A DNA stretch of 42,686 nt from Chromera velia. Lineage: Eukaryota > Sar > Chromeraceae. Where the stretch lies: assembly GCA_018398765.1 (NCBI GenBank), contig JAHBMJ010000570.1:1-42686 (forward strand). Direction: 5' to 3'. Position 1 is the first letter of the stretch. Every line of letters begins with the position of its first letter. Below, piece by piece: positions 2,964 to 39,861 of this stretch. The notes under the pieces are model-generated. The model had not been told where the DNA came from and ran no database searches. It worked only from the letters and a program-made list of their open reading frames with translations. A program made the translations under genes and the position numbers.

Positions 2964-5925
2964 GGAAGGAAGAGGAAGAAGTATTTCTGTGCCTCTGCGC
3001 TCTGTCGAGGAGAGAAAATGACCCATCCAATTTTGTGTAGAGAATGAACGAAGTCTGCTGCGATGCCGATTTGCTTTGCTCGTGTTCTGGTCTCGATGCT
3101 GCGTGGCCTTTTTTGGCTGATTGTCTCTCTGGGCGTCTGAGAGTGTTGTGTCTCTCTGTCGTGTTTGCCAACATGCAGCCGTCGGTTTCTTTGAGGAAAG
3201 ACTCCAAAATGTGAGTCTGGCTGGCTGTCGTTTTGAATGAAGCAAACACATGCAGGCCTTTCAGGTTGGTTTTCGACAACATCCTCACTCGCCTCCTTCC
3301 TTGTTCCCCTTCTTCTTTTTCTTCTTCTTCTTTTCTTTACCTCCGAGCGGAGTTTTTCTCCTCGCTTCCCCTTCTGAAAATCTTACACCCTGAATCCTGG
3401 ACACGCAGTCCTCCAGTTTGAGGATTCCTTGTCATGCAGACTGTTGCAGAGTATCTGCGCAGGTCTCAGGCCCTCCGCCTGCATGTCAGACCCCGGCCCA
3501 GCGTGGTGAGGGCCGGAGAGAGGCTTCCGCCGTCTTCCTGTGGCTGGTACTAGCCTGTTAGTAGTATCGTACTTTGTATCAAACACAAACAAAGCTGACT
3601 CGCATGTGACAGCGTACTATATAAAATAAGTCTATATTGCAAAGATACTATGAATTATACACAGAAAAAACACGTGTAATGACTTCTAAAACCATATTCT
3701 AGACCATAGTAGAATAACTTTGTAAACATTCTAGTAAAATTGACTTAAGGCTAAATGATAGCCTAGATGATGGCCTTAAATGTACTAGGACTAATTTAAG
3801 CAGATGTACAGCTAGTGACAGCCTAATGTGAGCTGGATGAGAACTAGGTTACATATTGGCTGAGCAGTGTGAGCTCCGCATGACTCGGCGGTGTGAGCAG
3901 TGTGAGCTCCACTGGCACATATACAACTTTGGTACAAACTACCACAACATAGCATAGCATTGATCATGATTGATGTTGAATCCGAGTTATTTCGATTTCA
4001 AGTTTTAATAAACCATGCATACGTACCTATTTTTTTTTATAAAGATGTCAATTTTTATAGAGTTCATAATTTATAAATTAGACTCGATCTAGTACTCGAT
4101 TAACCTTAACTTAAAGGATTTAACCTTCAATCATCATCAGTAACTTGACAGCAAAATATAAAAACTAATATCTTTTTTTAGAAAAAATATATTTTAAACT
4201 ATAGATTTTAGGCGATTTGTATGATGTAATTTATGAATATATCCGCATATTGTACAGTGCAATAACACCGCAATTAATCATTTGTTGTATATAAAATCTA
4301 TGTGATGATGATGATATGTATAAGTAAGGGGTTAAACCCTAGACCGAAGCCTAAGTGAGGCTAAGTCACTGTCATATATAATGTTACTCTTATTAAGAAT
4401 AAGCTTTTCATGTTTTGAAGCATTACTTGTTTTCAAAGGGATGAATCTGTCATTGATCTGTGTTAGTGTGCAGTTCAGACTTAATGTGGTTGAAGAATTA
4501 AGAAAGAAACAAATTCGATCAAAGGAAGAAAGTAAAGACCTCCAAACTGAAATGGACAGTGCAAACGACCATACGACTCCGATATTCCAGGGCAGCCTTG
4601 ATACTTTAATCAGGACAAAAGCACACCCGAGATGACAAGCTCTCCTTTCTTAATGAATTTCTAATTATTGACCGTCGACGCTCTTGTTCAAAGAGCATTG
4701 ACGGAATCACGCAGGTGGACAGAAGGCACAGTTGATAAGGCACGGATCTTGACAGGATGGGAACTCATCTAGAGTCCTAATGGACGAAGGGAAAGGGGGC
4801 GTGCAGCGGATGGGGAAAAAATGGTACGTTCAAGTCGATTCTTGAGACGCCGCTAAAATAAATCCATGCATATGCCTCCCATCCCATATGCGCGTCTGTT
4901 CTCCACACATCATGCAGAATGCGCACCCTCAGCGCGTACGCCCTCAGGAGAGGCGACAAGACTGCATGCTTGATTGATTTAGAACCCCACCCTCCCATGT
5001 CTCTGCATAGATAGATCTCTTTCTTGTTTTCCTTTGATCAACTGATCCTTCTCCTTCTCGACGCTCTTTGTCGTCGATACGAATTCATGAAAGAAACTCT
5101 GTCTCTGCCCCCCACCCACAACGCCCCCACCCGCCCGCCGGATGGGTGCCTGGACTTGCTGAAAGGATGAAGAGGATTGAGAGTGGTTCGCAAAGACAAA
5201 GCTAGAGTGACCTGTCTGCATTTGTGCAGGGAGAGAGACACATGCCTCTCTCAGAGCTTGCAGCGGTCGATTGCTGTATGAGAGAAGAGAAAAATGAAGA
5301 CGAGGAAGGTTACAGGAAGGGCGCTGGAATGACTCTCCTGAACACAGGCGAAGGAACGGAGAAGGAAAAATTGAAGGAGAGAGCGAAGTAGGGGGAATTC
5401 GATCACTTTCTTCTGATGAAGAAAGAAAAGAATTTTAGGGAACATTGAAGGTATCATGCAGACCGGAAGGCAGACAGGCCCTCCCTTTTCCGCATGCAGG
5501 AAAGACATGTCACTCAAGAGACGATGGAACCAGAAGATGTAGTCTTTTGTGTGTCGATGATTTCATCAACTGGTTGGATCCATGGAATGAATGCCCGAAT
5601 AGACCCTTACACAGCACTCAATCGTCTCATGTTTCTCTACCCTGGCTGCTGTCTGTGTGAATGTCTGTGCGTGAGAGAGAGAACATTACAGAGACATGAT
5701 GTTGCACAAAGGTCGTGAAGTGGAAGGAAGAGGGCAGAGGATGCGAAAAAGAGAGAATTCGTCTTGAGAGAAAGCCCCAGTTGTGTTATTGTTTGTTTGT
5801 TTGTTTGTTTCTCTCTCTCTCTCTCTCTTGCTTTTTTCTCTTTCATTTTCGTTTTCTCATTCATCTCCCCCACCCCCTCCCCCCTTCAGTTGGCTGATGG
5901 AATGAATCACTTCTCCTCCAGGGTT
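2964..5925. other. Intergenic region with an AT-rich island (about 3600-4380)
   Basis: This is the stretch between the convergent ends of mtnB and the NUMOD1 gene. From about 3600 to 4380 the base composition becomes strongly AT-rich, with repeated CTAG-containing words, unlike the flanks. A + strand open frame at 4381-4635 (84 codons) contains a short charged stretch around VVEELRKKQIRSKEE, but it has no start context, partner exon or recognisable domain, so I do not call it a gene. From 4640 to 5925 I see nothing coding. The segment 5800-5830 is a (TTTG/CT)n simple repeat. Confidence 0.6.
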
Positions 5926-8900
5926 TCAACGGGCCCTTGGGGGGGGGTCCGACTGAATGACCGCAGAGGAGGAGGAGGAGCTGGCAGAGGACGACGAAGC
6001 TGAGGGGGGGGCCTTGGCATCCTGCAGCATGGGGGGCTCCTTCGGTACGTCCCCTCCCTCTGCCTCTGCGTGTGCCGCGTCTCCTTCTTTCGCGTCCTCG
6101 TCTCCCTCTCTGTCTCCGGTCTCTTCCGGTCGAGGCTCTTTCGAACAGGCGTGATGTGAGGAAGGAGGCAGGGTCGGGGGAAAGCGGCTGGGAGAAGAAC
6201 GAGCAGCCATACGCTGCTCTCCAGGAGGGAAAGTCTGCTGGTAGGGAGACCAGAATGAATAGGAGGCATGGGGCCCTGCTCGGGGGCGCATGGGAGGGCC
6301 ACCGGGGGCTGCTGCTGCTGCCCCGCCCCTGTACGAGTAAGGAGGCCCCATCATGCGGCCTGGGGGCCTGTATCCCCAGGGCCCCGGCATTGGAAAGTGC
6401 CCCGGCTCGGGTCTGTGAGGGTCTCTTCTCTGAGTCTGTCTTTCGTGTGGTGTAGGAGAGAGTCGATCCCCTTTTTTCTGTGACTGTGCGTCTCCCCTTT
6501 GCTGTTGGCCTTCCTCCCGAGCTCCTTCTTGATCCTCCTGAGGAGGCGGCTGTGGTGGTCCAGGGGGGTAGGATCTGTACCCGTGGGGGTGTGGGGGGAA
6601 GTACATGTTTGAATGGGGAGGGCGATAGGAGTAGGCCCAGTGAGGAAAGCGGGGGCGGAACATCGGGTTCGGGGCGGTGCCTCTTCCTCCTGCTGTGTTG
6701 TTGTTTGTGTATCCGTCTCTGTGCCCTTGCTGTTGCTGGTAGGGGTTGTCATTTGAGGTGGAAGTGGGGGGGTGGTAGGGGGGCTGGTTGTATGGTGGGT
6801 AGCGGTGGGGATAGTAGGAGGGGCCGAAGCCTCGGTGTGCATGCATCGGGTGGTCTCTGAAATACCCCGGGGGGGGGGCCCAAGGGCCAGGGTGGTAGTG
6901 GGAGTAGTCGTCTCCCACATTCTCCCAATCTCCCTCACCCCCCTCATCTGCACCGTCTATCCATCCTGATGGATCCATCTCTGCGTCAGACTGGTACCCG
7001 CCTGCGGCCTCCTGCTCTTCCAGATCGTCCCCTTCGTCCTCTTCCTCCTCTTCCATCACAGGGGGTTTGGTGGAAGACATCCGGGCCCTGCCACCCCGGC
7101 CCCCTCTCCCGCGCCCCCTCCCTCGGCCAAGGCCCTTCCCTCCTCTTCCTTTTGCGGCCACCTTGGGCATTCGGGTTGTCGAGACCACAGCCAGAGCGAG
7201 GGGGTGAATGGCTCTTCGGCCTCTTGCCACTCGTCGCTGTGTAGGGTTGGTGGACGCGGCAGCTGCCGCAGACGACGCAGCAGCAGCACTTGCGCCCCCC
7301 CCGGCTTGCTGAACAGCAGGAGGGACCTCTGTCTTGGTGAACGCGAACCCCCTGGTCTCGTTTGTTGTTCTGTTCAACCCTACTTCGTACTTTAATGCTC
7401 TGCTGATTGTACCTGGGTTGATGCCGAGAGCCTCGCCACATCGGCGCAGAGAGGCAAAGTTTTGGGTGTGCCCTGTTGCCAACTCTTTTGCTGTGACCAT
7501 TATCGTCCCCAGCCCATTTGGCCCGCTGTTGAGTCCCCCCATCGGTGCGGCATGTCTGTTGAAGAACGGATCTCTGATAGATGAAGAGGGACTCGTGAGG
7601 CTCTTCTTGCGTTGGGCTGAGGGGGCAAGGAGGTCTGTGGCGGTCTTACGGTATACCGTGCGGGGTGTTCTCACGCCAGCGGCGGCTGCTGCTGCTGCTC
7701 CCTTCTGTGTCTGTGTCTTTCTGGTTTTCCCTTTGGAAACCACTTCCTCGGGGAATTCACGACGGGAGGCATCAGATTTGAGGGCGTTGGGGGGGGGTCT
7801 GCCCCTCTTTCGCTTTTCGTCTCGGTTCGCCTTGCACTGCCTGCTCTGTGCGAAGAACTCGGCATCCGAGTTGTCCTCTTCCATTTCGTCCATATCCCCC
7901 ACCTGATCCCTCTGCCCCCTCCCTTGGCGAATACTCCCACTCCGACGAGCGAGGGGATGCATCGCAGCACAGTCACTCCCATCAATGGACCTGACCCCCT
8001 CTCCCCCCTCTGTTCCCTCCTCCCCTCCCTCCAGTTCCATGTCCAGACCATCGTCTATCCATCTGTCCTCGGCACGTGCCAAGTCAAATCTGAACCCCAT
8101 CGTCACGTTTGTGCACCCCCTCTGCCCCACCTTGTACTGGAGGGCACGCGAGACCGTGCATGCATTGATCCCCAGTGCGTCCCCCGCATGACGCATGGAT
8201 GGGAATACCTTCACCTGTCCAGTCTTGATGTGAGTGACCTGGACTGCCTGCGGTTTGTGGATCCCGTTGTTGATCCCTCTTGGGACCTCAGCGCAGGCAC
8301 CCGCTCCCCCCTCGGTGCTGTCCAGATCAGTGGACAGACCCAGACCGGTCGACACGAACGAGGATGCCAGAGGGGCATCTGCAGAGAGGAACAGAACAGC
8401 AGCGGGAGAGGCAAGGAGGAATGTGTGTGTGTGGGGGGGTAGACTGAAGTAACGAGAAACGAAGGAAGCACACACATCTGCTTTTTGGGACCGGCCAATT
8501 AATTCCTGCACAAACAGCACTTGAAGGAATCGGTTCGCAGAAATGAAATGAAAAGGGCACGTCAAGACAGGCACGACACAAACACTTTTGGACCGTCTAT
8601 CTGCCTGCACAGCTGCATGTATAGATGTATGCACCTGTCACTGTTGTTGCACACCTTCAGAGTTGTTAGATTGCTTCGGTGGAGCGTTTCTCGGGACTTT
8701 GCGCAACGAATGGAGAAGTCCCGAGGCGGACGGGCGCCCAGCAAAGATACGGTTGCAGATTCGGTTCTGATTGTCCTCCTCCTGCAATTCCCTTCCCATA
8801 CCTCCCGCAATGCGTCCTCCACGACGCCCTCTCCCTCCATTCATTTTTGCATAGTTTCTCGGAACCCCTCCTCGTTCTGAACGGCGAATGATTGGGGCAC

Positions 8901-16273: not shown

Positions 16274-18034
16274 CCGACTAACTGACTGACAGGAATCCCC
16301 CAAAGACAATCTGGAAGAACCACATGAGGTGGAGGAGAAACTCCGTTCTGCATTCAATCATGCATACCATATTGAGTAATCCGTGTACCATATTGAGTAA
16401 TCCGTGAACAAGCAGGCATAAACAAAAAGGAAAGAAGGAAAGAAATTATCAATCAAAAGAAACCAATAGAAAATAAGACAAAAGGAAAGAGAAAAAGACC
16501 AGCAGAGTGGCAACCATACAGAAAAAAAAAAGAGACGAAAGCGAAAGAGTTCGAACCAGACCAAAGAACTACGGATTTCCTGCGTGTTTCTTTTACAGAG
16601 CACAAGTTCCGAGTATAGAGCGAGACCATCCGAACGTTCGGTCTGATTCTCCTCGACTGACACTAGAAAGAACACCAGTCTGAAGACGACGGCACCCATA
16701 ATCCCTGCACACAAAAGCACCAAGACTGCATGCGTTTATTCTTTAAAAAAAAAGACGCAGGCACCCATAATCCCTGCACACAAAAGCAGCAAGACTGCAT
16801 GCGTTTATTCTTCAAAAAAAAAAGACGCAGGCACCCATAATCCCTGCACACAAAAAGCACCAAGACTGCATGCGTTTATTCTTTTAAAAAAAAGACGCAG
16901 GCACCCATAATCCCTGCACACAAACAAACCAAGAGAAAAGGACACCACCGTGCTGTGCTGGAGAGAATTGTACTATACTGCCATTCAGACCCCCCCACTG
17001 GCTGGCTTCCTAGTTGGCCCAAGGAGTCGCTTCCGTGGAGAAAGAAAGTCTTCTGGAAGGGGGCGCACAGTGTCTAAAGCAATGTTCTCAGAAGGGATAG
17101 AACTCATGGAGCCAGCCAAAGCATACTATAACGAACCGCAACGGACATATCAGAATGAACCTGGAGGGAGACTCTGCAAGTGTGTGTAAGCCAACCGTGA
17201 GACTTTCGTGCGAAGCTTGAGAGTCGGCAGAGGGACAGGGGAGCCGAAGTAAAGGCTGCGGTAAGTGCTCTCTGTCGCAGAGAAGAAGGAGTGAGGGGGA
17301 GAGGGAGAGGCAGAGGGAGAGAGGGAGAGAGGAAGGGAGGGAGGAAGGGAAAGGGGGCGGAAGAGAGGGAGAGGGAGAGAGAGAGAGAGGGAGGGAGAGA
17401 GGGAGAGGGGGAGAGGGAGAGAGGGGGAAGAGGGAGGGGGGAGGGGCTGACCGTAGGTAAGCGCTTTTCGTCTTTGTTCGTGGGGTGTTTGGTAAGTCTG
17501 AAAGATAGTGCAGAAGACGAACAGGTTGTCCATGCTGAGGAGGTACTCGAGCATGTACCCGTCTGCCCACTGCATTGCAAACTTCCAATCATACATCAAA
17601 AGCAGACCCAGGTTGAAGACAATCGCAGTAAAGATCCAGAAGGCAGTGTTGCGTGCAGCTTTTCTCACGCTCATCTCTACAGTCTCGCCGCCTGTTGTTC
17701 TCCCAGAGCCTCCCGAAGTAGAACCCACACCAGCGCCCTGCGGCTGCCTCGCTTCCACAACCTCGGCACGCTGGCGTTTCATTGTGGATCGTGTGTCCAC
17801 AATCAGGAGCAGGGCGGTGGCAATGGCGAAGTAGATCCATGCTGCAAGCAATATGTATATGTATTCACATGTGGCGGTATGTGGAAGCCGAACCACGCAT
17901 GTTCAAATAGAAATGCACCGACCCTTCAGATCGCCAATCTCCATTTCCGCACTGTCATCTTGCCCTGCTGTGGCTGCCAGACCCCGGGGCGAGTGCACCT
18001 GCGCCGATCTGTCGGGGCGAAGAAGAGTCCTCAT
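11245..18034 (-). CDS. TerC-family integral membrane protein, twelve exons
   Basis: Exons read 18034-17923, 17841-17452, 16704-16662, 16347-16291, 15853-15756, 15496-14874, 14571-14506, 13820-13767, 13561-13506, 13187-13116, 12780-12723 (tentative) and 11970-11245. All phases fit and give 784 residues. TerC/Alx proteins are polytopic membrane proteins linked to tellurite resistance, manganese export and, in plants, thylakoid membrane insertion. Diagnostic segments are GYMLEYLLSMDNLFVF, GIMGAVVFRLVFFLV, HRYDASGAFF, EVIDIVFAVDSVSAKVAQ, FAMFGLRSLFFILE and YGLGLILAFIGIRLMMQR. Conserved intramembrane Asp/Asn are present. Two features are unusual: a disordered Gly/Ser insert of about 190 residues after HRYDASGAFFIRV, and a C-terminal tail of about 230 residues beginning with an acidic Glu run after VIVSCMVASVL. 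Exons 3 and 10 have duplicated splice sites (separate entries). The start lies in MRTLLRP; an extra 5' exon could exist. Family call is firm, substrate is not. Confidence 0.88.
12723..12780 (-). other. Tentative TerC exon 11
   Basis: Exon 10 ends in phase 2 and exon 12 must start in phase 0, so a linking exon is required. This 58-nt segment follows a long pyrimidine tract plus TGTCAG acceptor and restores phase. It translates to a sequence containing VRPVHVCGVAE, which lines up with the His-containing start of the last TerC membrane segment before ITVIVSC. The donor GTCGAG is weak, so the 3' edge is uncertain. Confidence 0.5.
12797..12840 (+). repeat. (GA)n microsatellite, CT tract on the TerC sense strand
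   Basis: A run of GA dinucleotides with few interruptions. Read on the minus strand it is the pyrimidine tract directly upstream of the tentative exon 11 acceptor, so it may serve as the splice-site polypyrimidine tract. Confidence 0.9.
13028..13142 (-). repeat. 34-bp direct duplication of the end of TerC exon 10 with its splice donor
   Basis: Positions 13109-13142 and 13028-13061 are identical over 34 bases and 81 bp apart. On the minus strand each carries the coding end CATTGGCATTCGTCTGATGA, the exon end CAGCG and the donor GTGAGTC. The higher-coordinate copy is joined to the real exon; the other lies in the intron 81 bp downstream. Confidence 0.9.
14242..14306 (+). repeat. (GAAT/AAAT)n microsatellite in a TerC intron
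   Basis: Imperfect GAAT, GAAC and AAAT tetranucleotides lie in the intron between TerC exons 7 and 8. This is the same tetranucleotide family as the mtnB intron 3 repeat. Confidence 0.75.
16001..16032 (+). repeat. (GA)n microsatellite in a TerC intron
   Basis: About fifteen GA units in the intron between TerC exons 4 and 5, read as CT on the gene's sense strand. It is not adjacent to a chosen acceptor. Confidence 0.9.
16180..16275 (+). repeat. Compound (CT)n-(GT)n-(GA)n microsatellite just downstream of TerC exon 4
   Basis: Three dinucleotide arrays follow each other: CT with interruptions, GT at about 16235-16258, and GA to about 16273. The block starts about 15 bases inside the intron that follows exon 4 on the minus strand. 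Confidence 0.9.
16691..16926 (-). repeat. 69-70 bp tandem repeat carrying four copies of the TerC exon 3 splice acceptor
   Basis: Units begin at 16691, 16760, 16830 and 16900 (the last is partial). On the minus strand each contains TGTGTGCAG followed by GGATTATGGGTGCC, which is the acceptor and first 14 bases of TerC exon 3. Only the unit at 16691 continues into the coding sequence for VVFRLVFF. The other three run into an A/T-rich filler (GACGCA plus A run and TTTATTC). Confidence 0.93.
17285..17450 (+). repeat. Purine-rich GA/GGGA low-complexity tract inside a TerC intron
   Basis: About 165 bases of nearly pure G and A on the + strand. On the minus strand it is a long CT/CCCT tract starting immediately after TerC exon 2. 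Any apparent translation (Ser/Pro/Leu) reflects composition. Confidence 0.85.
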
Positions 18035-18613
18035 GGCACCACACAGAGCCTCTCTGTATCAAGGAAAGGGCTCCAGTATGTACGTACCGAGTCGACAAAG
18101 TTCTGCGACACACGGATGCTTGCAGTTGGATAGGCTGATCATCAAATAACGAATCGTCTACAAGGGAATGTGTTGAGGTACATCTCAGGCATTCTCAGGC
18201 CGGTCTTTTCAGCTAATGATGATTGAGGAAGTGACAGAGGATCGAAAAGAATGCGTGGACGCGAAGAATCAGACTGAGCTAGCTAGCCTCCGCATGCCTC
18301 CGCGCTCCGGACTCTGTGCATGCATGTAAGTGCCCCACGGCCCCTTCAGTTTCCGCCGCCTTTCCGGGGCCCCACACTTGGGCTTTCTCGTGCCCCGAAA
18401 AGCGAAACTCAAAGATCGTCAGTCTGCCAGATCGATGTCGATCTGCCAGCGTGATCGACATAGCGTGACTCATTTTCGCCATATTTCGCCTCTTCCACTT
18501 CATTGGATCCTGCACCCTCTGGTTATATTCATGATAGCAGCAGTCCACTCGAGCAACAAGGGGCTTTTTCAAACATATTTACGCGTTCAGAGTCGACAGG
18601 TGGAACGAGAACA

Positions 18614-20321
18614 ATGGCCGACGTGCCTGAAGTTTCTGAGCGAGCAACACATGAGAGCCACGTGAAAAAAGACCGAGAGGCTCCCGGTTCACAGGATTTG
18701 GCCTCCTCGGCAGCAGAGACTCACCTTGGAAGCTCTGGGGTCATGGAAGAGACAGTGGGATCGGGGGGGGCAGTGAGAGTGCCAGAAAAGAAAGCAACAG
18801 GAGGCATTCTTGTGTCTGATGAAGGAGACGAGGAAGATCAGTCTCCCGCCTACCTTCCGTCCCGCAATCACGCGTCCCCCTCCCCTTCCGATCCTTTCAG
18901 GAACGACGGCTATGACGACGAAAGAGAATGTGAAGAAGACTCAGCTGAAGAGTCCGACGAGGATGAGGAAGCTGCAGACGCGGCACAGACAGTAGAGGAT
19001 GGCTTTGGGAAAGAAAAGGCAAACGAAGCCTTTAAGGAGGGTCGGTTCAATGATGCTATCACTCAGTGGAAGCGTCTGATCAGATCTTGTGATTACATCA
19101 TTTCCAAAGGTGCCTATAACGAGGCGCCCGAAAAGCTTGCAGAGATTACGACTTTGCGGCACACCGTGCGCTTGAACCTGTCTATGGGTTTCATCAAGAC
19201 TGAACAGTTCGCCTCTGCCCTCGAGGTGCTCGGAAAAGTTCTCGCAGACGATCCAGAGAACGTGAAGGCGCTTTACAGAAAGGCAGATGCGCTGTTCAGG
19301 TTGGAAGAATATGAAGAGGCCGAGAAAGCAGCTGATGCTGTGCTGGAGATCGACAAAGAGAACAGGGCCGCCGCACAGCTGCGTGAGAAGGCAAAGAGAG
19401 AGGCAGTGGCATACCGCCAGAAGCAGAAAAAACAGGTCCCTCTCGGTCTCCCTCCCCATCTCACCCTCTCTTGTCTTCTGTTTCTTCGCTGCCTTCTCGG
19501 CGCCTGTGAATTCTCTCTCGTTCCGGTTCCCATCAATGAGTCCCCCGCCCACTCTCTCGTTTTTGTCGTTGAATTTAGTCCCTTCCTCTGGTACCTGAAA
19601 ACCGTTTCAGGCTTCGTGTTTGGGTGTGTGCGAGGTTTTGGTGCATACGTACTATCTCCTTCTATCCCCTTCCTTACGCCGAGGTCCTCCCTCTTCTTGC
19701 CTCGTGTCCGCACCTTCTCACTCTCTCTTCTCTGGTGGCAAGCCGCGCTTTCACACTCAATGTACGCCGCACTTATGCCAGCTGTGCCCCCTCTTCAGTG
19801 TCACCTGTTTGTTTTCCGACACTTTTGTTGTGTCATCTACTTTCTGAGTTAAATCAAAGGGATTTTTTCTGTCATCGACGTCCGACGTGATGTAACCTGA
19901 TTCGATTGCGTGTCGATGCACGTGCATGCAGGTTCGGAGGATTTTCGAAAAGATGAGTGAGGTTCCCGATGCGCGCTCCTGTCACCCCTGGTCTCCAGAA
20001 AAGAGGGAGGTGGACAGTCCCGTGTGGTTCCTCAACAAACAGCTGGTGTCTAGCATGGCGACCCGTGTGTCTGCCCTGGTCTCCTCTGCCCGTGCTGCGG
20101 CTTCCTCCGCGCTCGGGTCTATGTTTGGGGAGGGCGGGTTGTGCAGGAGGCGTCGGCCTCGGGGGGGCGGTCCTTCTCCAGCGGAGAGGGGGTCTTCTGT
20201 GCCGCCACCAGAGGCTCGGGGTTCCTCTGCCGCCCGTGTGACAGCAGCACCAGGGGAGAGAGGGGTGGGGGGGACAGAGCCTCAGGGCGAAGTCTCGTTC
20301 GGAGGCGGACATTTGGAGTAA
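18614..20321 (+). CDS. TPR co-chaperone-like protein with Hsp90/Hsp70 carboxylate clamp
   Basis: Exons are 18614-19435 and 19932-20321, joined in phase 0 to give 403 residues. Residues 1-125 are disordered and strongly acidic near the end. Residues 130-262 form a three-repeat TPR domain of the FKBP/AIP type. It contains a full two-carboxylate clamp: Lys133 and Asn137 in KEKANEAF, Asn188 in RLNLSMGF, and Lys218 and Arg222 in KALYRKADALF. Such clamps bind the EEVD tail of Hsp90 or Hsp70, so a cytosolic co-chaperone role is inferred. No FKBP peptidyl-prolyl isomerase domain precedes it, which is unusual for this TPR subtype. The C-terminal exon carries an Ala/Ser helix (VSALVSSARAAASSAL) and a basic Gly/Arg/Pro tail. 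The chosen ATG has a strong ACAATGG context. An in-frame ATG at 18503 would add 37 residues. Confidence 0.8.
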
Positions 20322-22559: not shown

Positions 22560-24198
22560 AAATAAAATATTGAGTAAATAATATCATTTTTATGAAATTC
22601 TATCTTATTTTGACCATGATAATGAGGAGGGGGATGACCTTTTCGCCCCCCCCAATGGTTGCCAGTGGGCCAACCTTTCTCGGAGTGGTACCTTCCGTCC
22701 CCCCTCTCATCCTGAACGTCTTCCATTTCGGCATCCTCTTCCTGCACTCTCCCCCTCCTGCCTGTAGCAGCGGCTCCAGCAGCGGCCGCCCTAGCAGTGG
22801 CCTCTTCAGCGGCCCTTCATGCCTCTTCTTCCGCGTATCCGATTAATTCTGTTATTCAAAGAGGTCGTAAAGTGATGGAGGAACGTGACTGAGACAGTGA
22901 CTCTCTCCCCGGCCTTGTTGGTGACTGTGTGCTTGGATAAATCACCGAAGACAACTTCTAGGGCCTCGTTGAGGGGACTGATCGTCTTGTGTGTTTTCTC
23001 CACACCTGCGTCTGTAGGCTTTACCTTGGCCCACCTGCAAAGAGAAAAAAAAATGAAGGTACAAACCTGGCCAACCTATATAGACAAACAGCTGCGTCAT
23101 CAGGTAGCAAAAACAAGTAAAAAAAAGAGGGGGTGGGAGCAAACAAAGTTGGGATAGCGCAAGAGATATAGACGTGAGGAAAAAAAAAAATGGAGGCTCT
23201 GAAAACAGAAAGCTGACGTACCTGTTCTTCTACTCTTAATCGGGAAAGGTATCCTTGTACATGCAAATCAAATCTTCGATGAGCTCAGAATCAACAGAAG
23301 GGATCGGAGGTTTTTTGGGGCACTGCACTGTGCCAACCAGGTATCTCCACCCAACACTTCTCTCTTTTTTGCATTTAAATCCAAGGATGCAAAACTTTAT
23401 GCATCCATCCATCCATCCATCTATCCCTCCTCACTCGATCACTCCATCCATCAACCCATCAATCCATTCATCCATCCATCCATTCATCCATCCCTCCTCA
23501 CTCGATCACTCCATCCATCCATCCATCCATCCATCCATCCATCCATCCTCACTCGATCACTCCATCCATCAATCCATCAATCCATCTATCCATCCATCCA
23601 TCCCTCAGTCACTCCCTCACTCCATCCACCCATCCATCCATCCCTCATCACTCCATCACTCCATCCCTCCTCACTCCATCACTCCATCCATCAATCCCTC
23701 ACTCACTCCATCAATCCATCCCTCACTCACTCCATCAATTAATCCATCCCTCACTCACTCCATCGCTCCATCCATCCATCCCTCACTCACTTCATCCATC
23801 CATCGATTTATCCATCCAATGGCATCCATGCATCCATCCATCCATCTATCCATCCATCCATCCCTCAGCCACTCTCTCACTCCATCCATCCATCCATCCA
23901 TCCCTCACTCACTCCTCACTCGATCACTCCATCCATCAATCCATCCATCCATCTATCCATCCATCCATCCCTCAGCCACTCTCTCACTCCATCCATCCAT
24001 CCATCCATCCCTCACTCACTCACTTCATCCCTCCCTCACTCCATCCACTCATCCATCCCTCTTCACTCCATCATTCTATGCATGCATCCATCGATCCCTC
24101 ACTCACTCCATCCATCCATCACCTCAGTTGTGACTGACCTTTCCAAATCTCAGTTCGCACATGTTAACATCCTGGTCGATGCAGTCGCTTCTGAAGCT
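22560..24198 (-). pseudogene. Possible spliced gene remnant, family not recognised
   Basis: Three minus-strand pieces look exon-like. 24198-24139 codes [20 protein letters not shown] and ends in AAG followed by GTCAGT. About 23359-23268 codes a piece containing [20 protein letters not shown]. About 23037-22830 follows a TTTGCAG acceptor and codes TDAGVEKTHKTISPLNEA and on through VVFGDLSKHTV. The second joins the third in phase only through a GTACAA donor. The last piece soon meets a stop, while an Ala/Glu-rich frame continues to 22560 only if an in-frame TGA near 22820 is ignored. The first intron holds a large minisatellite. I cannot name the family, and the models are weak, so this may be a decayed or transposon-captured gene. 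Confidence 0.3.
23400..24125 (+). repeat. (CATC)n / CACTC minisatellite, about 0.7 kb
   Basis: The tract is made of CATC tetranucleotides, with variants CACTC, CAATC and TATC, organised into higher-order blocks such as CTCACTCGATCACTCCATCC. It is open in one frame because of its composition, giving SIHPS-type repeats; I do not regard that as a protein. It would lie in an intron of the doubtful minus-strand gene. Confidence 0.92.
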
Positions 24199-25443
24199 CT
24201 TACTAGGCGGCACAAAACAAAGAGACAGCACTATATAAAGACGATCCTACTGTCCGTTTGCCCTGTCCTGGTGGATTGACATAAAAGCACCAATACCCTA
24301 TGACACAGTTCTTTCATCTGTACGAATCTGTACGTCTGCATATATCTTTGTCTGCATGAGTGGCCTTGGATCATGCATGCCGGGGTCTTTCACTGTACAC
24401 GCTGCATAGAACGCTGCGTGCAGCGGGCCCTGATCGGCCCCGCACATTCACGGGAAGCTAGCGCCGCGCTCACGTGCGCACCCCGGTCCCGGTCGCGCGA
24501 CGGGCAGGCCCAACATATACATATATATTTCTTCATATGTTTATATGTTTGCACATATAAGGAGTATGCCATTTTCAAAAAAATCATAAAATACTCTTCT
24601 CGTTAGAGATGGTAGTTAAAAGACTCATTTGGCATCTTTTATCTAAAAATATGTTTAAAAAAATATTTTAAGTTCAGTCATATTTAGTCATAATTTAGTT
24701 ATGAAAAATTACTTAAGAAAAAAATAGTGAATGGACATTCACAAGTTGATTCACTAAAAAATTCATCGTGCTCTAAAATTTTTTTAATATTGTATACGAC
24801 CAATCTGGGTAGCTAAACGTGTTCTCTGATCAAAATTAAACCATACAAACCACTTTTCGGCTCTGCACGCTTTATAGTTCATAAAAAAAAATTATTCATA
24901 TTTTACTTATATTTGTGTCATATTTTCAAAATATTATAATATTTATTCATATTTAGTCATATTTAGTAAAAGTTTTATAGGGGACCTAAAATCGCGTGTG
25001 TTTTGTGGAAAATATTGTTGCAGAGAGCTTAGAGTTGATCATTAAAGGCCTGAAAAACCTAAAAATGCATGTAGAGTGATCACCACTAGGATCACCATTA
25101 TTACTGTATGACGAGCCTGGCACTGACCATGATTAACGGCCTATGCAATCATCTAACTACGGAGAGTGTTACAGTTTTTTATATTTTTCCCCGTATAGTT
25201 GCTTAAATAGCCTCTAAAAGCTTAAAACGGTAAGTTTAAATACCGAATACCGTTATTTATAGGGGTTAAAAACAACTGGTTATAACTGGTATGCAGTATT
25301 TAATAACTCTAAGCCTACCTAGCAGCCTACTACAGCCTACGCGTGTTTCGCAATCCTATAAGCCCTGAAAAGGGGGAGGGACTCCCTGGCTAGGCAAACA
25401 AGCCCTTATTAAACGATAACCAGGAAGAATGTTATCCAAAGTA
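24199..25443. other. GC spike then AT-rich stretch, no gene seen
   Basis: From 24400 to 24510 the DNA is very GC- and CpG-rich (GGCCC, GCGCGC words), then it drops abruptly to AT-rich sequence with TATTTAGTCATA repeats. The GC spike could be a promoter for the doubtful minus-strand gene. Nothing coding is supported. Confidence 0.55.
24949..24982 (-). repeat. Right copy of the 34-bp AT-rich inverted repeat
   Basis: This is the reverse complement of the repeat at 22136-22169 with one difference. Inward from both copies the DNA continues as runs of TATTTAGTCATA-like words, suggesting longer but decayed terminal repeats. Confidence 0.7.
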
Positions 25444-26628
25444 ATCCAAGGTAGGGCTGGGAAAAGGTTTATTGAGAAAAGGTTCAAATCTGAAAAAGTG
25501 AACCTGTTGAACCTGTTTTGAACCTGTTGAACCTGTTAAAGCTGTTTTGAACCTGTTTTGGAGGCCAGACGCGCGGCTACTGGCACAAGGCCGGCCAGGC
25601 CCGTGCCGCCCGTGGCCGATATAGATAAAATAAGGAGCCGGAGCCGCGCGTACAGCAACTGTCCCCAGCCGGTTCAATCTATTGTGTCGGACAGACGCAT
25701 GTCAACATATGTCAGCATGAAAACTTATGCTGACGGTTGCAGAAGTGAAGAAGTACACGTGACTTACCAAGTTTTCCACTTGCAAGGCCCCGTATCAAAA
25801 TGGACAGTCTCCACTGAAGGAATGAGGAAGTATAGAGTTTGTTTGACAGCAGTCTGCACGACAGTGTAATTGATAATATCTTTTTGGAGGGGCTGCTTCA
25901 GACTCGTGCCGGCAGCAGTCTCTCTGTTTGCTTCCACTTGCTTGCTTCTGGTGACACAATATTGCCAATTCACATGATCGGGTGCACTAATGAGTATTCG
26001 AAAACAGAGTTTCAATCCGATTTTGTGTGGCAAAAGGTTGGAACGAATGCAAACCTAGATATTTGGGTGCCACCCGCTGTAGCTGGGAGTGGTGGGGGCC
26101 ATGGGGGGGAGCAGGGGCCCAGGGGGGGGGGCAACAGGCCGGGCCGGGAGCAGCAGGTCAAAGAGGCGGCGGTGCATGGAGAGGGAGGGGGAAAGCGGTG
26201 GCCGCGGGGCAACCGGTAAGCAGATAAAAGAAAGAAAGAAACGTTGTGATGGTCTTATGTTGACTAAATTGTCATGATTGATATGATCATATAAATTTAA
26301 TTATGATATTTTCCAATTTTTTCAGGCTTTTTTGATTACTAATTTTCAACTATAAGCAGTGAATAACTTGAGACTAGCACCTAATGTGAGCGTCAATATT
26401 GATTTAAACTATTTAAAAACACTACTAAAGCATAGATTCTATAATAAAATGTTCTAAAAATGCATTAAAGCCTAATTTAAAGGCATAAAATAATACGAAA
26501 AAATGAGGTTTCTATTAATTAAAAGTGAACCTGTTTTTGAACCTGTTTTTGAACCTGATTCAGGTTCATTACTTCGAAGTGAACCTTGAACCTTGAACCT
26601 TGAACCTTTTCCTAGCACTAATCCAAGG
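25444..26628. mobile_element. Non-autonomous hAT-like element, 1169 bp, with perfect 8-bp target duplication
   Basis: The element occupies 25452-26620. Target duplications ATCCAAGG flank it exactly at 25444-25451 and 26621-26628. The left tip is TAGGGCTGGGAAAAGGTT. The right tip, on the minus strand, is TAGTGCTAGGAAAAGGTT, so 16 of 18 bases match. Subterminal GAACCTGTT motifs occur about five times at 25499-25560, with GAACCTG/GAACCTT units at 26526-26610, as expected of transposase-binding sites. The interior 25560-26220 is much GC-richer than the ends and holds short frames on both strands but no hAT transposase motif. There is a perfect GTCAGCAT/ATGCTGAC inverted repeat near 25711-25734. 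A minus-strand GTAAGT donor near 25770 hints at captured exon sequence. Confidence 0.85.
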
Positions 26629-32000: not shown

Positions 32001-33917
32001 TAAGACAGTCAGATAAACAGACAGAAAGACAGACAGACAGACCGTTCTCGGAATAAGCGAGAACGGCCCTGGAGTCTCCCACATGGGCCGTGAAGATCTT
32101 GTTGTCCTTCTGTCTGTGAAGGACAACGCTCCCAGTGCAACCAGAAAGAGAACAGTCGAAAGCTCCGGTGGCGGCACAGTGAGCTACCATCTGATTGTGG
32201 CACTGCACTCGCAGATAGAGAATTTAATACATGTTCGCTCTTTCTCATACAGCCACACGAATATCTGGTTGCGGCACTGCACGCAGCTTGAGACAACACA
32301 AAATACAGACACACCGTCCTGTCTCTATCCTCTCTACAAGCGAGATGCTTTTTGTCTATCTGATTCCTCTTTCATTGTTCTCGCGCAGAAAAAAAAACTG
32401 GAGTAACACCGACACGGAGATGCACGATCCGCTTAGAGAGTTCTGGACACGTGTGGGGCGTCTCTCCCTTTTCCCCAGCCTCCCCCATCCCCCAATGTGC
32501 GGTCTCACTTCGCTGGTGCAAATGCTGAAAGAACCAAACTTCATTTTGCTGAATTCTTCCCACGTTATTCTCACTACAAACACTACCAGTAGCCAATGTC
32601 AAGAATACTGCCTTCAAGAAAAGGGGCACACTGCCCACTGACTGACGTCAAGAAATGCCGCGGTGAGTGCCGCCTTGGGGTCCTCTTGGAACTGTGGGTG
32701 TGTGACGATTAGCTTGGGGATCTTGTTCTGCACGAAGTGGGAGACGTCGTGCCCAAAAGGACCGTGACCGTCGAAGACACCGTACAGGCCCCAGTCGTCG
32801 ATTCTGCAGGCACGCACCCACGCACCCGCACATACATGCATGCAGCACGCACGCATGCCAACGAATCGATCATGCAGTCAATCAATGGGCATGCGGGAAG
32901 AACCCCAAAGGAATCATGCTGTCAGACAGACAGACGGGTAGAGAGGGAGGACAATCAAGTACCGAGATGGATGCAGATGTGGCCCTGTAGCAAGAAAGAG
33001 ACAGTAAGCACATCGAACGGGAGAAATGGCGGGTAGCCAGCAAAGGAGAACGGAGTCAGCCATAGTGGTTGTGGGAGTAGTAGGTCAAGACTTTCTTTTG
33101 TGGACGTCCGGGAGGGAGAGGTGCAGCTAAGCAGAGGGGAGGAAGAGGCCAGGAAATAACACAAATATTCCTTTCGAACATGCACGGATGAGGAAGACGA
33201 ACATGGAACGCAACAAGGATGCAGTCTCGAGAGGATAAGGGATGCTTAGAGTGGGACAGAGCAGACTGGACAGGTGAGAGGGCATTCATTCGTCCACCTG
33301 CAAGTTATCTATCTCTCTATGGATCAAAATGCGGACCTGAGGATGAAGAAATCGTCTTGGTTGGGAGACTCTGGCTTGAGTCCCTTCCTACAGACGAAGC
33401 CGAGACCCTGGTCAGACAGTTTGGTGTCGTCACCCAGTCGTTCCATGTCCTTTTGCTGCACAGGCAGAAAGCACAGAGAAGATGAACATGCTTGCCAAAA
33501 CTAACTAAACAGAAAGGTGCGGTCGGAACAACGGAAGCAGTCAGTACCTACATCGAAGCCTCTTTGCATCCCGACTGCCGGAGCTCCGGAGATGGACATT
33601 CGACGGTTGGCACCCCTGAACAGCGACAAAATCTGGTTCTCCCCCGCATCTGGGTCGACCATTGCCATGCCCCTCTTGTCATTGCTGTCATCGTCCTGTC
33701 GAGCAGCAGCGGAGTGACTGACGGACAGACGACGACGCCCAGCGGCAATCTTCGGAGGGTCACCGTCCCCCCCAGCCCCACCGGGAGAGCTTCCTCCCGA
33801 CTCCTTCTTTATCCCATCGTGAAGGTCTCCCCCCCCTTTTTTCGAATTATTCACGCCCATTGCAGGTTGAGACTCTTCTATGCCCTGAGCGTTTTTCTTC
33901 GACGCACAGCCTCCCAT
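29005..33917 (-). CDS. PP2C-family (PPM) Ser/Thr protein phosphatase, N-myristoylation signal, ten exons
   Basis: Exons read 33917-33552, 33455-33337, 32803-32647, 32202-32043, 31567-31490, 31208-31124, 30647-30589, 30390-30275, 30015-29926 and 29394-29005. Phases join exactly and give 539 residues. The enzyme is a Mn/Mg-dependent phosphoserine/threonine phosphatase. All metal-binding aspartates are visible: Asp156 (SPNQDDFF), Asp173 (VFDGHG), Asp358 (VCSDGVWEF) and Asp405 (VVDDITV). SGCTGSVV, HVGDSRAV, KDLTIDHKP, GLAMSRALGD and the KGLKPESPNQDD entry motif also match. The N-terminus MGGCASKK fits dual myristoylation (Gly2) and palmitoylation (Cys4), so membrane anchoring is inferred. The 120-residue leader also has two RRxS kinase sites (Ser65, Ser108). 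The C-terminal ~125 residues are low-complexity. An in-frame ATG at 33950 would hide Gly2, so I chose 33917. Confidence 0.93.
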
Positions 33918-34774
33918 GGCTTCCCTTAACACATGCGAGCAGTCACGCACGCAGCACTCACACTATCTATAGGTAAGAAAGTATTCGTGCCGCGTCCTTC
34001 CTCCTTCCTGTTGCTTGGTGTCTGCTCACCGCTAGCAGAGAGGAGAAACCTGTATGATTGTGGGCCTTTCATACACACGTACAAATCCAGCGGGAACACC
34101 GCGAACGGGGCACTCGAAAGGAAGACGATGTCCGCAATGGAGGAAGTGGTGGAAGATTCGGCGAATCGGCTGGGTGCACGCTTGTATCCCTCCAGTCAAT
34201 CAAGTCTGGAGAAAAGTTGGCCCCGGAGTTTCAGCTTTGAGTGCACATTTTGAAATTTCTGTTCGCACCTGAGGCAGGCGTGGATGTTCGCACGGAGCGC
34301 CACTCAGAAATTTCTCACTTCGTCTTAATTGACAAAAACTGCAACGCTGAGTCAGACTGATCGGAGCGCACTCGAGCGTGCTTATAATTACTCTTTTGCC
34401 GCGTACGCGTACGCGTACATACATATTTTCTTTTTGACTGAAATGAAGTGGAATTGTGATGGAATTGAGTGCATGTGTTCCGCTTGTTCCTTTCGGTCCG
34501 TCGGCACAGTCCGTGCAGCAGCATAGAGCTGTGCATGATCGTGAAACACAATCCAAGTCAGGGTTTGAACTTCGACTTCTTCGGCTGAATTTCGCATCAC
34601 CAGCGCGTCTCGTTCTAGCTGTACATTTACATATATACAACGGCAGCATTTATAATGTATTCAACCATTCTTTGCCCCTCGTGAGTGATCAGCAGTCTGC
34701 TTTCACTTCCTCAGCGACCCACCAGAGGCAGAGGGTAGAAGCACTCCGAAAATCTAGAGCCAGACGTTGGCAAA
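33918..34774. promoter_or_regulatory. Shared divergent upstream region of PP2C and the polytopic membrane protein
   Basis: These 857 bp separate two outward-facing genes. A 16-base palindrome GTACGCGTACGCGTAC at about 34403-34418 contains two ACGCGT boxes, followed by ACATACATATTTTC. ACGCGT is the MCB cell-cycle element in yeast; a role here is only a guess. Short frames in the region look random. Confidence 0.4.
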
Positions 34775-36670
34775 ATGGCTGGAGACACAGAAAGTCTGTG
34801 GCAAGAGCGCACCGTCGACATCGAAAGTGACATCGACATAGCAGAGGAGTCCTGCTTTGTGTTGGATGAAGGCTGCCAAGTGCACACACGCTTCAGGCCC
34901 TCTCAAGCAGGCAGAAATGTCCCAGCCTGTCCGAGCTACCGCGGTTCCACCTCAACAGCAGGCAGAGGACCCGCTATTCCAATACCTTCGCTTCCCGTCG
35001 GCGAACTAACAGCAGGGACTGTGAACCACGACATCGATCTGGAAGAGGGGCACGTCCAGACAAATCGCTGCAGCAATGATGCTTGGGTAGTCCGTCTGAT
35101 TACCCCCCTTGGGAAGCACAAAGAGTGGTGTGCCTCCGATGGCTGGCGCACTCAGAGAGACAAAGATCAACAGTATGGGCAGCAAGTGCGTTCGATGGAA
35201 GAAGGGAGTGAGTGGGCGGACGACATCGGTTCAACGAACGAAGACTTGATGGTTCCCTGTTTCTCTGCAGTTCCCGAAGTGGAACGACCGGAGAGGGTTT
35301 TCCCTCCCTGTCTACCCATGAGCGTGAGCGGGGGCTCAGAGAATAATCCGTCAAATGGTATTAAGAGCCCCTCAAGCAAGATGTCTCGCTCCGCAAGGGG
35401 ATCAGGGACAAAGCAGCGAGAAGGGCTTTTCTTCGGGTGTACAGACGGTAGAAATAGAAGGAGGAATGGGGTGGGAGAAGACACGAGGGAAAGGGGGGGA
35501 CCGTCCTTGTTTGCTGTCTGTCCGACGCACTCAAAGAGGGCTCCAGAGGAGAGTGCATTCCTATCCATGAAGGGAGACACGGTTTTCTGGAACCCCCCCT
35601 CGTTTTCCCTTTCACAAAGCATTTTTGAATGCCTGGGGGTGCTCATCCTCGTATTTGTTGTTTTCGCAGCTGCACGGTTGGGCAGTTTGATTTCACACTC
35701 ATGGACCGAAGGGGAGCCTGCCGTTCTCCTCTCTGTAGTCGTTGTGGGGACGGGTTTGACAGGTCGGGTCTGGCTCGCGCTTCAGTTTTCTCTTTTTGCT
35801 TTCTGTGTTGTCTCTCACTTATTTTTTAACGAGTTATCTGTGACAGACAGGCGTGTTCAATATGCAGTTGTTTGTCTGCGGGAGTTTGTGTCTGAGGAGT
35901 GATTCCTGTGGTTGACTGATTCCCCCTCCGAGATTCTGTCACTTTCTGTCTTGTTACGAGCTGAACTGCATTGATGGTAGGCAAGTCAGATCATCTTTCT
36001 GCCCCTCTCTTCGTGTTTGGTGGTCCGACCCTGGTTTCGTTCATTCGTTCACGCATTCCTCCGATTGTGGTTTTGTTGATGTTACAGTGAATGGAACAGA
36101 TTAACTGCAGTGCCTGGTGGTGTGACTCTCCCCTTCCCCCCCGCCCCTCTCTGTCTCCCTCTTTGAGATCTGTCTCCCTCTGTGTCTGCCTACCTGCCTG
36201 CAGGTGTCTGTTCCTGGGGCCTGGTTGTCCCCTGGATCGAGACGCTGGTCCTCTCTGCCGCACAGGTGCTTGTGTCTGTGCTCTTCTCGTTGATGCTGGT
36301 CTCGAAGACCTGGACCGCAACGAATCCCGGGGGGGCTGCGTTGATCCTGGTTCTCTGCCCGTTGTTCTCCCTGACTGCCTCCTTGTCCATCGTCCTCCTC
36401 GTCGCGTTGGGCATCAACAATGAACACGAGGACCCGAGGAATATCGGCAGGAGACGCCTGGCACTGCCCTTTGCGTGGCTCCGACTGAACAGCGAGAGAG
36501 CGATGCAGATCTGCAAGCATGCCTTTCTCCTCCAAGCCCAGTTGCTTTCCATTACTGCGGTCCTTTCTGCTGCAGTGGCAATCTCGGGAGAGAACTTAGA
36601 GGAGACGGATGGAGACTTCTCTTTCGATCGAACAGTCTGGGGATTCGTGGTAAGTATTCAATCAGTCAAA

Positions 36671-36706
<36 letters not shown>

Positions 36707-38211
36707 GCACACACACACGAGAGCACGGGAATGCGTGTACTTACATTCCGGGACAGAGAAAGAGAAAAGTTGAATGGAGGAGGCGTATTTGTTGAAGAGC
36801 CTTCTTGAATCGTCTGCGCCATTGCTTTTACGCACCTGTCTTTGTCCTTCAATTCAATTGGGGGATTCCCGCTTCTTCTTTGCTCGCCTTCTTCTCTTTC
36901 CTATCCTCGTGTCTCTTTCTCTCTCGCACCCTCTGATCCCTCAGGTTGCGCACATGATCCTCATCATTTTGGCGACTGTGTCAAATCCACTTGCGTCCTC
37001 CCTGCCTGGATGCAACTCCGTGAACTGGGAGGGTGCGCTGTTTGGCAGAGAGAGGGGGGATGCGGACGTCCCCGCATACCGATTGATGAAGCCGCCTTGG
37101 TTCTCCGTCCGTCTCCCGGCAGATGCGGCCCAAATGCTCTCTGCCTCCGCCCTCCTGTATGCCTATGCCGCCCCGAGACTTCGCTGGGGAAATCCCTTGA
37201 GCTTCGGCTTTGCAGCCGTACTTGCGTTCTGTCACTGGGTCATTTGTGTTCTGCGTGCGCTGTGGGGGGGGCAGTCCGCCCCGGCAGAAGGCCCAAGACG
37301 CAGAAATCTGCATAACCTGGGGGTTGACGACAGCTCTGAGGCTTCGAGCAGCGATAGGGGGCTTTTGACAGTGGGAGGGCGGGAGGGGTCGGTGGGAAAG
37401 ACAGTTGAGATGCCTCTGTGCGCTGCTGTCCCATGGTTGGTGTGGAGATTAGATCGGTCAGGGGCCCCGGAAAGCGACGTTCCACCTCTACAGCGACATC
37501 ACAGTGGGAGCGCAGCCACCGCCCCTGCTGAGACCGCGAGTATGAGAGGGTCTGGGGGGGGGAATAGGGAAATAGGGGAGGTGCGGTTGACGGGAGTCAT
37601 GGGAAGGGGGAGAAGAAGGTGGGGGTCTTCCTCCTCGAGGGAGAGGGAATCTTCGGTTGAGGGGGGGAGTGTGGTTCGAACCCTCGAAAGAAGACTCCTG
37701 AATGAGGATCTTCGAGGTGAACTTTTGGGGGGTCAACTGATAGTTGACTTCGCGTTTTTTTGTGGCGTCGGGGTTTCCATGGGTACTCTGGAAGGGTTGG
37801 AAGAAGCTTTGAGTTTTGGACTCACGGCAGGATTGATGCTGGTTGTGGTCTTTGCGCTTTTTCTCCTCACAGTGTTCGTGAGACGCCGGGTTGTATACTA
37901 TGCGGTCAGTCAGTCTTTCTGATGATTTTCTCCTTTTCTTTCTCGGGTTGCTGCTGAGGCAGGATACCGATAAAATGGCCTCCATCAGACTAGTTTTTCT
38001 CAGGACAGATTTCTGGACGATAGTGCTTGGTTCTCTCTGGTTTACTCTTGTCACGTCTCACAGCTCTTCTCAATGTCCCTTGCATCTGTGTGTAGTGATT
38101 TGGTGTCTCTTCGCTCATTCGTTCTTTTCTTCCTTCCTTCTCCCACCCACCACCCCGCATCTCTGTCTGCGCGTATGTTTGAGTGTGCATGTGTGGATTT
38201 TTAAATCTGCA

Positions 38212-38248
<37 letters not shown>

Positions 38249-39861
38249 AGATTTTGAAGACGTACGCTGAGTTTCTCTCTACTAGGAGTGCCACTGCCCT
38301 CTCAGTAAGATCAGCCGTGAAAGTTCGGGGCCACTCGCCACACAAGGTCCCCCCAGGTGTGAGCGCCCTCCCTCAACATGAGCAGGAGCCGGGGAAAGCA
38401 AGTCCAAGAAAGGAAAAGACAGATGATGATGCGTGCAGCCCCCCCATGGGTCTCGTCACTCCCCCCTCTCCATCCGAGTTTTCGTCTCCCCTGCCGTCTC
38501 CCCCCCCTCCGATCATGTTGATAGAGGCCGATCACGAGGCTCCAGATCCTGAATCAGACGAAGAAGAAGAAGAGCACGAGGGCCAATCCGACGGGTTGAA
38601 CAATTTCTCTTCCACTCAGCACGTCATCCCAGAAGTCCCTCGACACTACCCCGCTTCTTCTCAATTTCACTTTCAGCTCGACGACCTGCCCCCCGTCCCA
38701 GCCTCTCGAATGGAGAGTCCCCGGGGTCCGGCAGAGACAGACCAAGACCAAGCGCATGAGGAGACCTTTACGGGGTCGATGCCCGAGAGTCCCAGACACG
38801 AGCTCGGCAGGTTAAAGACGGTGGAGAGACAAGATTCACAGAGAGAGCAAGAAAAAGAAAAAGAGAACGACTCGGTGTGTGACGGTGCGCCCTCTGAAGT
38901 TTCGGAAGCAGACCAAATTGTTGCTCTGGCGGTGTTTGCAGCTGTCAGTTCGAGAGGAGCTGCAGCTCTTCCTGGACGGAAGATGTCCAGCACGCACTCC
39001 ATGCCCTTCCCTCCCCCCCCGGACTGTCCCCCCCCCTGGTCCCCCCCCGGAGCCTTGCCTTCGTCTTCTTCCATTGCCGAAGAGGCCTCAAAAGCTTCCC
39101 CCTCTCGCAGTGCAACCTCAAGATCCCATTCTTGTTCCCAGTCTGCATTGCCGTTTGTTGGAAAATACACCAAAGCCGTCTCCTCTTCCGGGGTCGTTAC
39201 TACAGAGGTGCTGCGCCTCTCAACCGGCCTCCCTACTCTCCCCCCCTACCCCCTTTTTCCAGAAGATTGTCGGCGCTTCTCACGAGAAGCAGAAGAAACC
39301 GGGCTAGGCCGGCAGGTTCTCGTCAGAGAAATCACCTGTGGAGACGCGCCTGAGGATCCCGCAGACGTCCCCTCCCAAGCAGAGGAATACCAAAATGTCA
39401 ACTCAATAGGAAGTTTTCCCGGAGGCACAGAAAGAGAAAGAGGAAGAGAAAGAAATTCAAATGAGGCAGAACTCGATGAGACCTCCTCTGCCTCAGACTG
39501 GCGAGTTCGCCTCTCTGGCTGTCTCTCAGGGTCTCCAGGAGGATTTGCAGCCGGGTTGTTGAAGATGAAACCGAAAGAACCGACTCCCGACCTTGCTGTC
39601 GCCACACTGACGGGACCTGAGGGGGACGACATCAGTTCGGAGGCAGGAGCCTCACCCATAGACCCGCATCACTTGCCCCCTGGTCCTGCGTTGTCTTGTG
39701 TAGGCGGGTGGTCGTTGCAGACAGCGATTGAAGGGGCAGAGCGTGAAGAGGCAGAGGGGCGCGCACTGGCGACTCTTTGTTGGGGCGTACTCTTTCCGCA
39801 AGGGGGTCCCGGAAAGCCGACTTGTGTGTCTGCTAATTGGCGCCTCGGTCGGTTGGCTTGA
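34775..39861 (+). CDS. Large polytopic membrane protein with long disordered regions, family not recognised
   Basis: Exons are 34775 to about 35850 (donor unresolved), 36204-36649, 36945-37904 and 38251-39861. The last three join in phase. The ATG has an AAAATGG context. The protein would be about 1360 residues. Residues 1-270 are hydrophilic. About ten hydrophobic segments follow, for example VLILVFVVFAAARLGSL, LILVLCPLFSLTASLSIVLL, SITAVLSAAVAIS, MILIILATVSNPLASSL and TAGLMLVVVFALFLLTVFV. A 200-residue Ser/Gly/Arg-rich loop lies inside exon 3, and an acidic, Pro/Ser-rich tail of about 530 residues fills exon 4. The layout suggests a cytosolic-tailed transporter or scaffold, but no transporter signature is visible and I assign no function. 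Exon 4 may contain further unseen introns. It diverges from PP2C. Confidence 0.65.
36670..36720 (+). repeat. (AC)n microsatellite near the start of intron 2 of the membrane-protein gene
   Basis: About fifteen AC units followed by a few interrupted ones, about 20 bases past the GTAAGT donor. Confidence 0.9.
38213..38250 (+). repeat. (GT)n microsatellite forming the 3' splice site of intron 3
   Basis: An uninterrupted GT array runs straight into TACAG and the exon at 38251. It takes the place of the usual pyrimidine tract. Confidence 0.88.

Follow-up and report, generated by a model that had tools for sequence, protein, structure and literature searches.

A probable Ds-like deletion derivative with a GC-rich interior in a hAT-like transposon family of Chromera velia

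Tips of hAT-type elements follow the consensus TAGGG-TG-. In the Ac/Ds system of maize, the tips start in this way, insertions carry 8-bp target-site duplications, subterminal repeats are present, and short forms arise by internal deletion of an element that bears the gene of a BED-finger transposase. hAT MITEs occur as many short copies without a transposase, which have common tips and duplications and form subfamilies with one junction. The family described here, which we call family A, has all of these traits, and very probably supplies the Chromera velia element under study, which we read as a non-autonomous, Ds-like internal-deletion derivative whose interior is not host DNA. It differs from Ac/Ds in the subterminal motif, which is GAACCTG here and GGTGCA in a second, related family, and in a transposase gene with a C-terminal tail that has no convincing Pfam match; unlike hAT MITEs, its copies are 0.8–1.6 kb long without nested inserts and keep recognisable ends of the transposase gene. 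Pack-MULE and Pack-TIR elements (PMC8277862) likewise combine tips, a duplication and a GC-rich interior, whereas the interior here would come from the element's own gene rather than from a host gene. The published C. velia assembly comprises 193.6 Mb in 5953 scaffolds with approximately 30 Mb of transposable elements, according to the genome paper (PMC4501334), and the word hAT is absent from its main text. No description of family A was found in the literature on Chromera transposons or on hAT transposases with BED or C-terminal parts, which is weak evidence as that literature was covered mostly outside subscription papers.

The window element and its copies

The window is the whole stretch of 42,686 nucleotides that was analysed, contig C569 of the 177.8 Mb in 4040 contigs searched as the genome. 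It contains a 1169-bp element (25452–26620) whose ends read TAGGGCTGGGAAAAGGTT...AACCTTTTCCTAGCACTA, with ATCCAAGG, a perfect 8-bp target-site duplication, directly outside both (25444–25451 and 26621–26628). An earlier note on this DNA had claimed that a target duplication flanks the element exactly, that its 18-bp tips agree at 16 of 18 positions and that GAACCTG subterminal repeats are present; each claim was borne out, the repeats being located at both ends. The features of the element are as follows.

25444–25451, no strand: left target-site duplication ATCCAAGG, which stands singly at the related empty site on C2956
25452–25469, plus strand: left terminal inverted repeat TAGGGCTGGGAAAAGGTT, with 125 exact genome copies
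25499–25557, plus strand: left subterminal repeats GAACCTGTT
25452–25938, plus strand: part colinear with positions 1–500 of the C1271 element, a predicted 5' leader that precedes the region coding for the BED finger
25939–25949, plus strand: putative deletion junction with an 11-bp filler (TTGCTTC-like repeat), a join common to L001–L008
25950–26219, plus strand: predicted remnant of the transposase C-terminal tail, from GDTILPIHMIGCTNEYSKTEFQSDFVWQKV... to the stop at 26217–26219
26220–26525, plus strand: AT-rich 3' part, colinear with the C1271 element
26526–26608, plus strand: right subterminal repeats GAACCTG / GAACCTT
26603–26620, minus strand: right terminal inverted repeat, its outer 16 bases with 151 exact genome copies
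26621–26628, no strand: right target-site duplication ATCCAAGG

The search for other genomic copies with the same tips, suggested earlier, was successful. For the 18-base left tip, the genome has 125 exact copies and none of the reversed pattern; for the right tip, 151 exact copies of the outer 16 bases stand against none for the control. Both counts greatly exceed chance expectation. Locations were taken for the first 100 left and the first 100 right tips. A DNA search of the genome gave at least 62 pieces that match the element, with 40 of 282 candidates scored. Both tips were present at 25 of the 28 loci first examined, the other three being cut or without one tip. Among 37 distinct two-tipped copies, a set that does not include the C1271 copy, which spans two loci, the 8-bp duplication is perfect in 15 and has one mismatch in 7; shuffling the left and right 8-mers gave a mean of 0.65 and a maximum of 4 such pairs with at most one mismatch, against the 22 observed. 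In the other 15 copies the flanking 8-mers differ at two or more bases, so that decay or rearrangement has affected many flanks. Identity to the window copy is 96.7–98.0% in four of 33 aligned copies and 81–94% in 29; this alignment excluded three copies that carry nested inserts. The differences from the window copy over the whole element comprise 2059 transitions and 545 transversions. Two longer copies, L030 (1592 bp) and L031 (1553 bp), hold more of a plus-strand frame.

Three long two-tipped copies were considered as autonomous elements and rejected. L069 (4155 bp) has an insert with one stretch near both of its ends, as judged by eye, L070 (2504 bp) also carries an insert, and L071 (6920 bp) contains a nested copia-like retroelement whose frames were read by eye. 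L071 (C1043:16770-23770) is flanked by the duplication AAGTTTGG, and its copia-like retroelement lies near the left tip. Other hATs of the genome have a dimerisation domain of their own that exceeds the Pfam cut-off, but their tips differ from those of family A and the GAACCTG array is absent; read by eye, the tips are CTAGGTGCAT in L009, L011 and L012 and CATAGTTGCCATAGGATAG in L013–L015. These PF05699-positive loci (L009–L015) were thus dismissed as the autonomous partner, two groups having other tips; the stretch examined around L010 showed no tips. The tail protein of family A has no real match in them (best E 1.1).

When the two flanks of the window element were joined, they matched C2956:25688-25816 across the joint, with 72% identity over 147 bases, and ATCCAAGG stands there singly whereas it is doubled, on both sides of the element, in the window. 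The outer left flank alone matched at five other places in the genome. C2956 thus shows the site without the element; it is a related repeat and not an allele of the kind named in the earlier note. Ten extra bases, ATCCAAAGTA, at 25434–25443 adjoin the window duplication on the left and are missing from C2956. They resemble a worn duplication plus TA, and possibly are the footprint of an earlier excision.

Taken together, the tips, the 8-bp duplications, the copy number, the related empty site and a transposase-bearing relative support the classification of the window element as hAT-like and non-autonomous.

Deletion junctions and a transposase-bearing relative

C1271 carries a 6308-bp stretch (33358–39665, minus strand) with a family-A tip at either end. 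All 25 compared copies consist of a left part and a right part of this element, and L020, L026 and L034 show one further gap relative to it. The window copy corresponds to positions 1–500 and 5665–6308 joined with the 11-bp filler, while positions 501–5664, a nested stretch included, are missing. The same junction is common to L001–L008, that is, to seven other copies, with slightly shifted BLAST edges in L005 and L006, indicating that the deletion was probably a single event whose product then multiplied. By our own grouping, the 25 copies fall into 16 junction classes. Their joins have 2–14 bases of overlap in 11 copies and 1–25 bases of filler in 14, where the join edges are BLAST edges and overlaps of 2 bases could be chance; overlaps and filler of this kind are as expected of interrupted gap repair. 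In the history that we propose, the middle of an ancestral transposase-bearing copy would have been deleted, probably when the repair of an excision gap was interrupted, and the two ends would have been joined by the filler. The short form would then have been multiplied and inserted by a transposase supplied in trans, which would give the 8-bp duplications.

A 501-aa frame encoded by the C1271 element includes a BED finger (PF02892), whose score of 20.7 bits is marginal to the cut-off of 20.6. Beyond the BED finger, no convincing Pfam, NCBIfam or PDB match was found for a catalytic core, and two further Pfam matches (E 0.04 and 0.19) look like chance. The motifs TYDIGT and TTDNASS may be of DDE type, and an RNase-H-like DDE core is predicted by eye. 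One copy of the transposase core was detected in the genome: among 13 genome matches to the 501-aa frame, the only full-length one is the frame itself, and each of the other 12 covers a short part of residues 1–73, the pattern that deletion derivatives should give. A downstream exon resembles the hAT dimerisation region PF05699 at 12.3 bits; this score and another of 12.8 bits are both under the cut-off of 21.4. In an hhalign comparison, this exon together with its counterpart in a second family, family B, aligned with the PF05699-positive hATs of the genome at E 1.3e-4 and a probability of 53%, and when single sequences were compared, the match to L010 had E 0.05. The order on C1271 is the 501-aa frame, the dimerisation-like exon and then a tail frame as in the short copies. 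A second gene beside the transposase had been considered and was dropped after this reading of C1271.

The tips of the C1271 element are worn, and its flanks, TCATCATG and CCGCTATA, form no duplication. Inside it, positions 2536–2956 and 4293–4670 are 79% alike as an inverted repeat. Because of the worn tips, the absent duplication and the nested stretch, we regard this copy as a relic and not as the proven source of the short copies. The nested stretch (2536–4670) has inverted repeats of about 420 bp with CTAGTTGCTAGC-like ends. The earlier note had recommended a search by tips for full-length relatives encoding a hAT transposase; the relative on C1271 is a BED-finger, hAT-type copy, a worn relic with a dimerisation-like exon below the PF05699 cut-off.

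Origin and coding capacity of the GC-rich interior

The GC content is 55% in 25560–26220, compared with 38% in the first 110 bp and 28% in the last 399 bp of the element, so that the richness of the interior noted earlier is a real contrast; it is uneven, since a stretch of 45% separates two GC-rich blocks (64% and 71%). The family's own gene very probably supplies both blocks, as its leader and its C-terminal tail, and the interior would consist of the remaining 5' leader and the final codons for the transposase. The statement that the interior has no transposase motif holds for the catalytic core, although the end of a transposase gene is present.

The earlier note had taken the element for a non-autonomous hAT carrier of captured host DNA, in the manner of a Pack-TIR. 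A captured piece of a host gene would fit an interior richer in GC than the ends and a tail ORF that no Pfam or PDB match marks as transposase. Against it, the whole interior is colinear with both ends of the transposase-bearing C1271 copy, leaving the capture of host DNA unsupported, and the tail stands behind a dimerisation-like exon in families A and B alike. Nor did two protein searches of the genome reveal a donor gene (156 and 141 matches, with the surroundings opened for a minority). Capture by the window element is hence very unlikely, and what persists of that description is a hAT-like and non-autonomous element. L067 (C1842), a 79-bp DNA match, was tried as a donor gene and judged to be a worn piece; its frame is rich in simple repeats, and no recognisable tips were found within 1501 bp. 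The end of a divergent transposase gene, when GC-rich and devoid of a transposase motif, can therefore be misread as captured host DNA, and it is a longer relative with the same tips that decides between capture and internal deletion.

The minus strand of the window holds SVETVHFDTGPCKWKT followed by GTAAGT, as had been pointed out. The region of this peptide is retained by 25 of 34 scanned copies, among which the peptide is identical in two, the window's included, the frame is open across it in 21 and GTAAGT is kept in 22. The corresponding frame in L031 has no Pfam match. The peptide with its GTAAGT was rejected as an exon: it is antisense within the 5' leader and is not conserved as protein.

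A different suggestion is that the GC-rich part encodes a small protein still expressed by the short copies and of consequence to the host or the element. A 127-aa ORF is open in the window around 25902–26192, and some copies have longer open frames, such as the plus-strand frame of 255 aa in L031. The substitutions show no protein constraint, however: relative to L068, 26 copies have 91 synonymous and 282 non-synonymous codon changes (a synonymous share of 0.24, with 0.31 expected) and 14 stop codons, indicating that the copies decay free of coding constraint and making an expressed protein highly improbable. Differences from L068 in the tail region of family-A copies are strongly transition-biased, with 415 transitions and 42 transversions. 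Internal deletion of the family's own element remains our reading of the interior.

The C-terminal tail in two families

Searches with the 255-aa frame of L031 gave nothing in Pfam at E values up to 5 and nothing in the PDB at E values up to 10, and the tail alone gives weak, scattered Pfam matches (up to E 10; best 0.016, in 2 of 8 members) that look like chance. The 156 genome matches obtained with the L031 frame include a distant relative on C3770, and homologues of the remnant at 25950–26219 are found in L031, L039, L066 and L068. The relative belongs to an element of family B (C3770:13622-16207, minus strand; L066/L072) of 2586 bp, with tips TAGGGCTTGGAAAAGGTGCA...TGCACCTTTTCTCAGCCTTA, GGTGCA subterminal repeats and a perfect duplication GTAGATTT. 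Its exact 19-base left tip has 42 copies in the genome against none for the control. The left ends of families A and B are 74–76% alike over 74–104 bases, and their tail frames have 30–35% protein identity (about 33%). In an alignment of 60 codons, this frame gives 21 identical residues of 60, compared with 14 of 59 and 12 of 59 for the remaining two frames.

The dimerisation-like exon of C1271 finds family B at E 4.4e-12, and the exon that precedes the family-B frame matches just one other place in the genome, which lies in C1271. The tail follows a dimerisation-like exon in both families, which keep it despite different subterminal repeats. The exon and the tail are in different or interrupted frames on both C1271 and C3770, and a fused dimerisation–tail protein is accordingly deduced from the homology between the two families. 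After a charged, alanine-rich linker, the tail reads LQSY...D-x-x-x-FR...FVGM...G...I...W...F-(Q/K)-SDF-x-W-x-KV. By eye it gives an impression of BAH- or SH3-type folds, and no test supports BAH.

We tentatively propose that the hATs of families A and B possess a previously undescribed, conserved C-terminal domain of approximately 110 aa, which is kept across families and might bind chromatin or DNA to guide insertion. The tail is the sole part that may be new, the rest being an ordinary Ds-like deletion derivative. It is also conceivable, if somewhat unlikely, that the tail itself goes back to an ancient capture. In that case a host domain would have been joined to the transposase in the common ancestor of families A and B, and its counterpart in the host would since have disappeared or changed beyond recognition. 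To our knowledge, such a tail is not a usual part of hATs, and the two families are joined by only about a third of identical tail residues, both of which agree with an old fusion. A host relative was nevertheless not recognised in the two genome protein searches, with the surroundings of a minority of matches opened, and two scans of viral contigs for a viral origin of the tail or the transposase (23 and 33 pattern matches, none confirmed) yielded no relative either. What is documented is an Ac/Ds-like system with many deletion derivatives, one detected transposase core and a tail common to two families.

Elsewhere in the window, a 903-aa low-complexity ORF (5929–8637, minus strand) has NUMOD-like motifs at two places; it scores 23.1 bits for NUMOD1 (PF07453, cut-off 22.8) and 24.1 bits for PF22083, below the cut-off of the latter. 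NUMOD domains are usually linked to homing endonucleases. A long CATC-type tandem array with periods of 4 and 107 occupies 23402–24120, and its frames read IHPSIHPS repeats. Two likely ordinary host genes are represented by an exon of a TerC-family membrane protein (17153–17902, minus strand) and by a TPR-repeat protein (18464–19849, plus strand).
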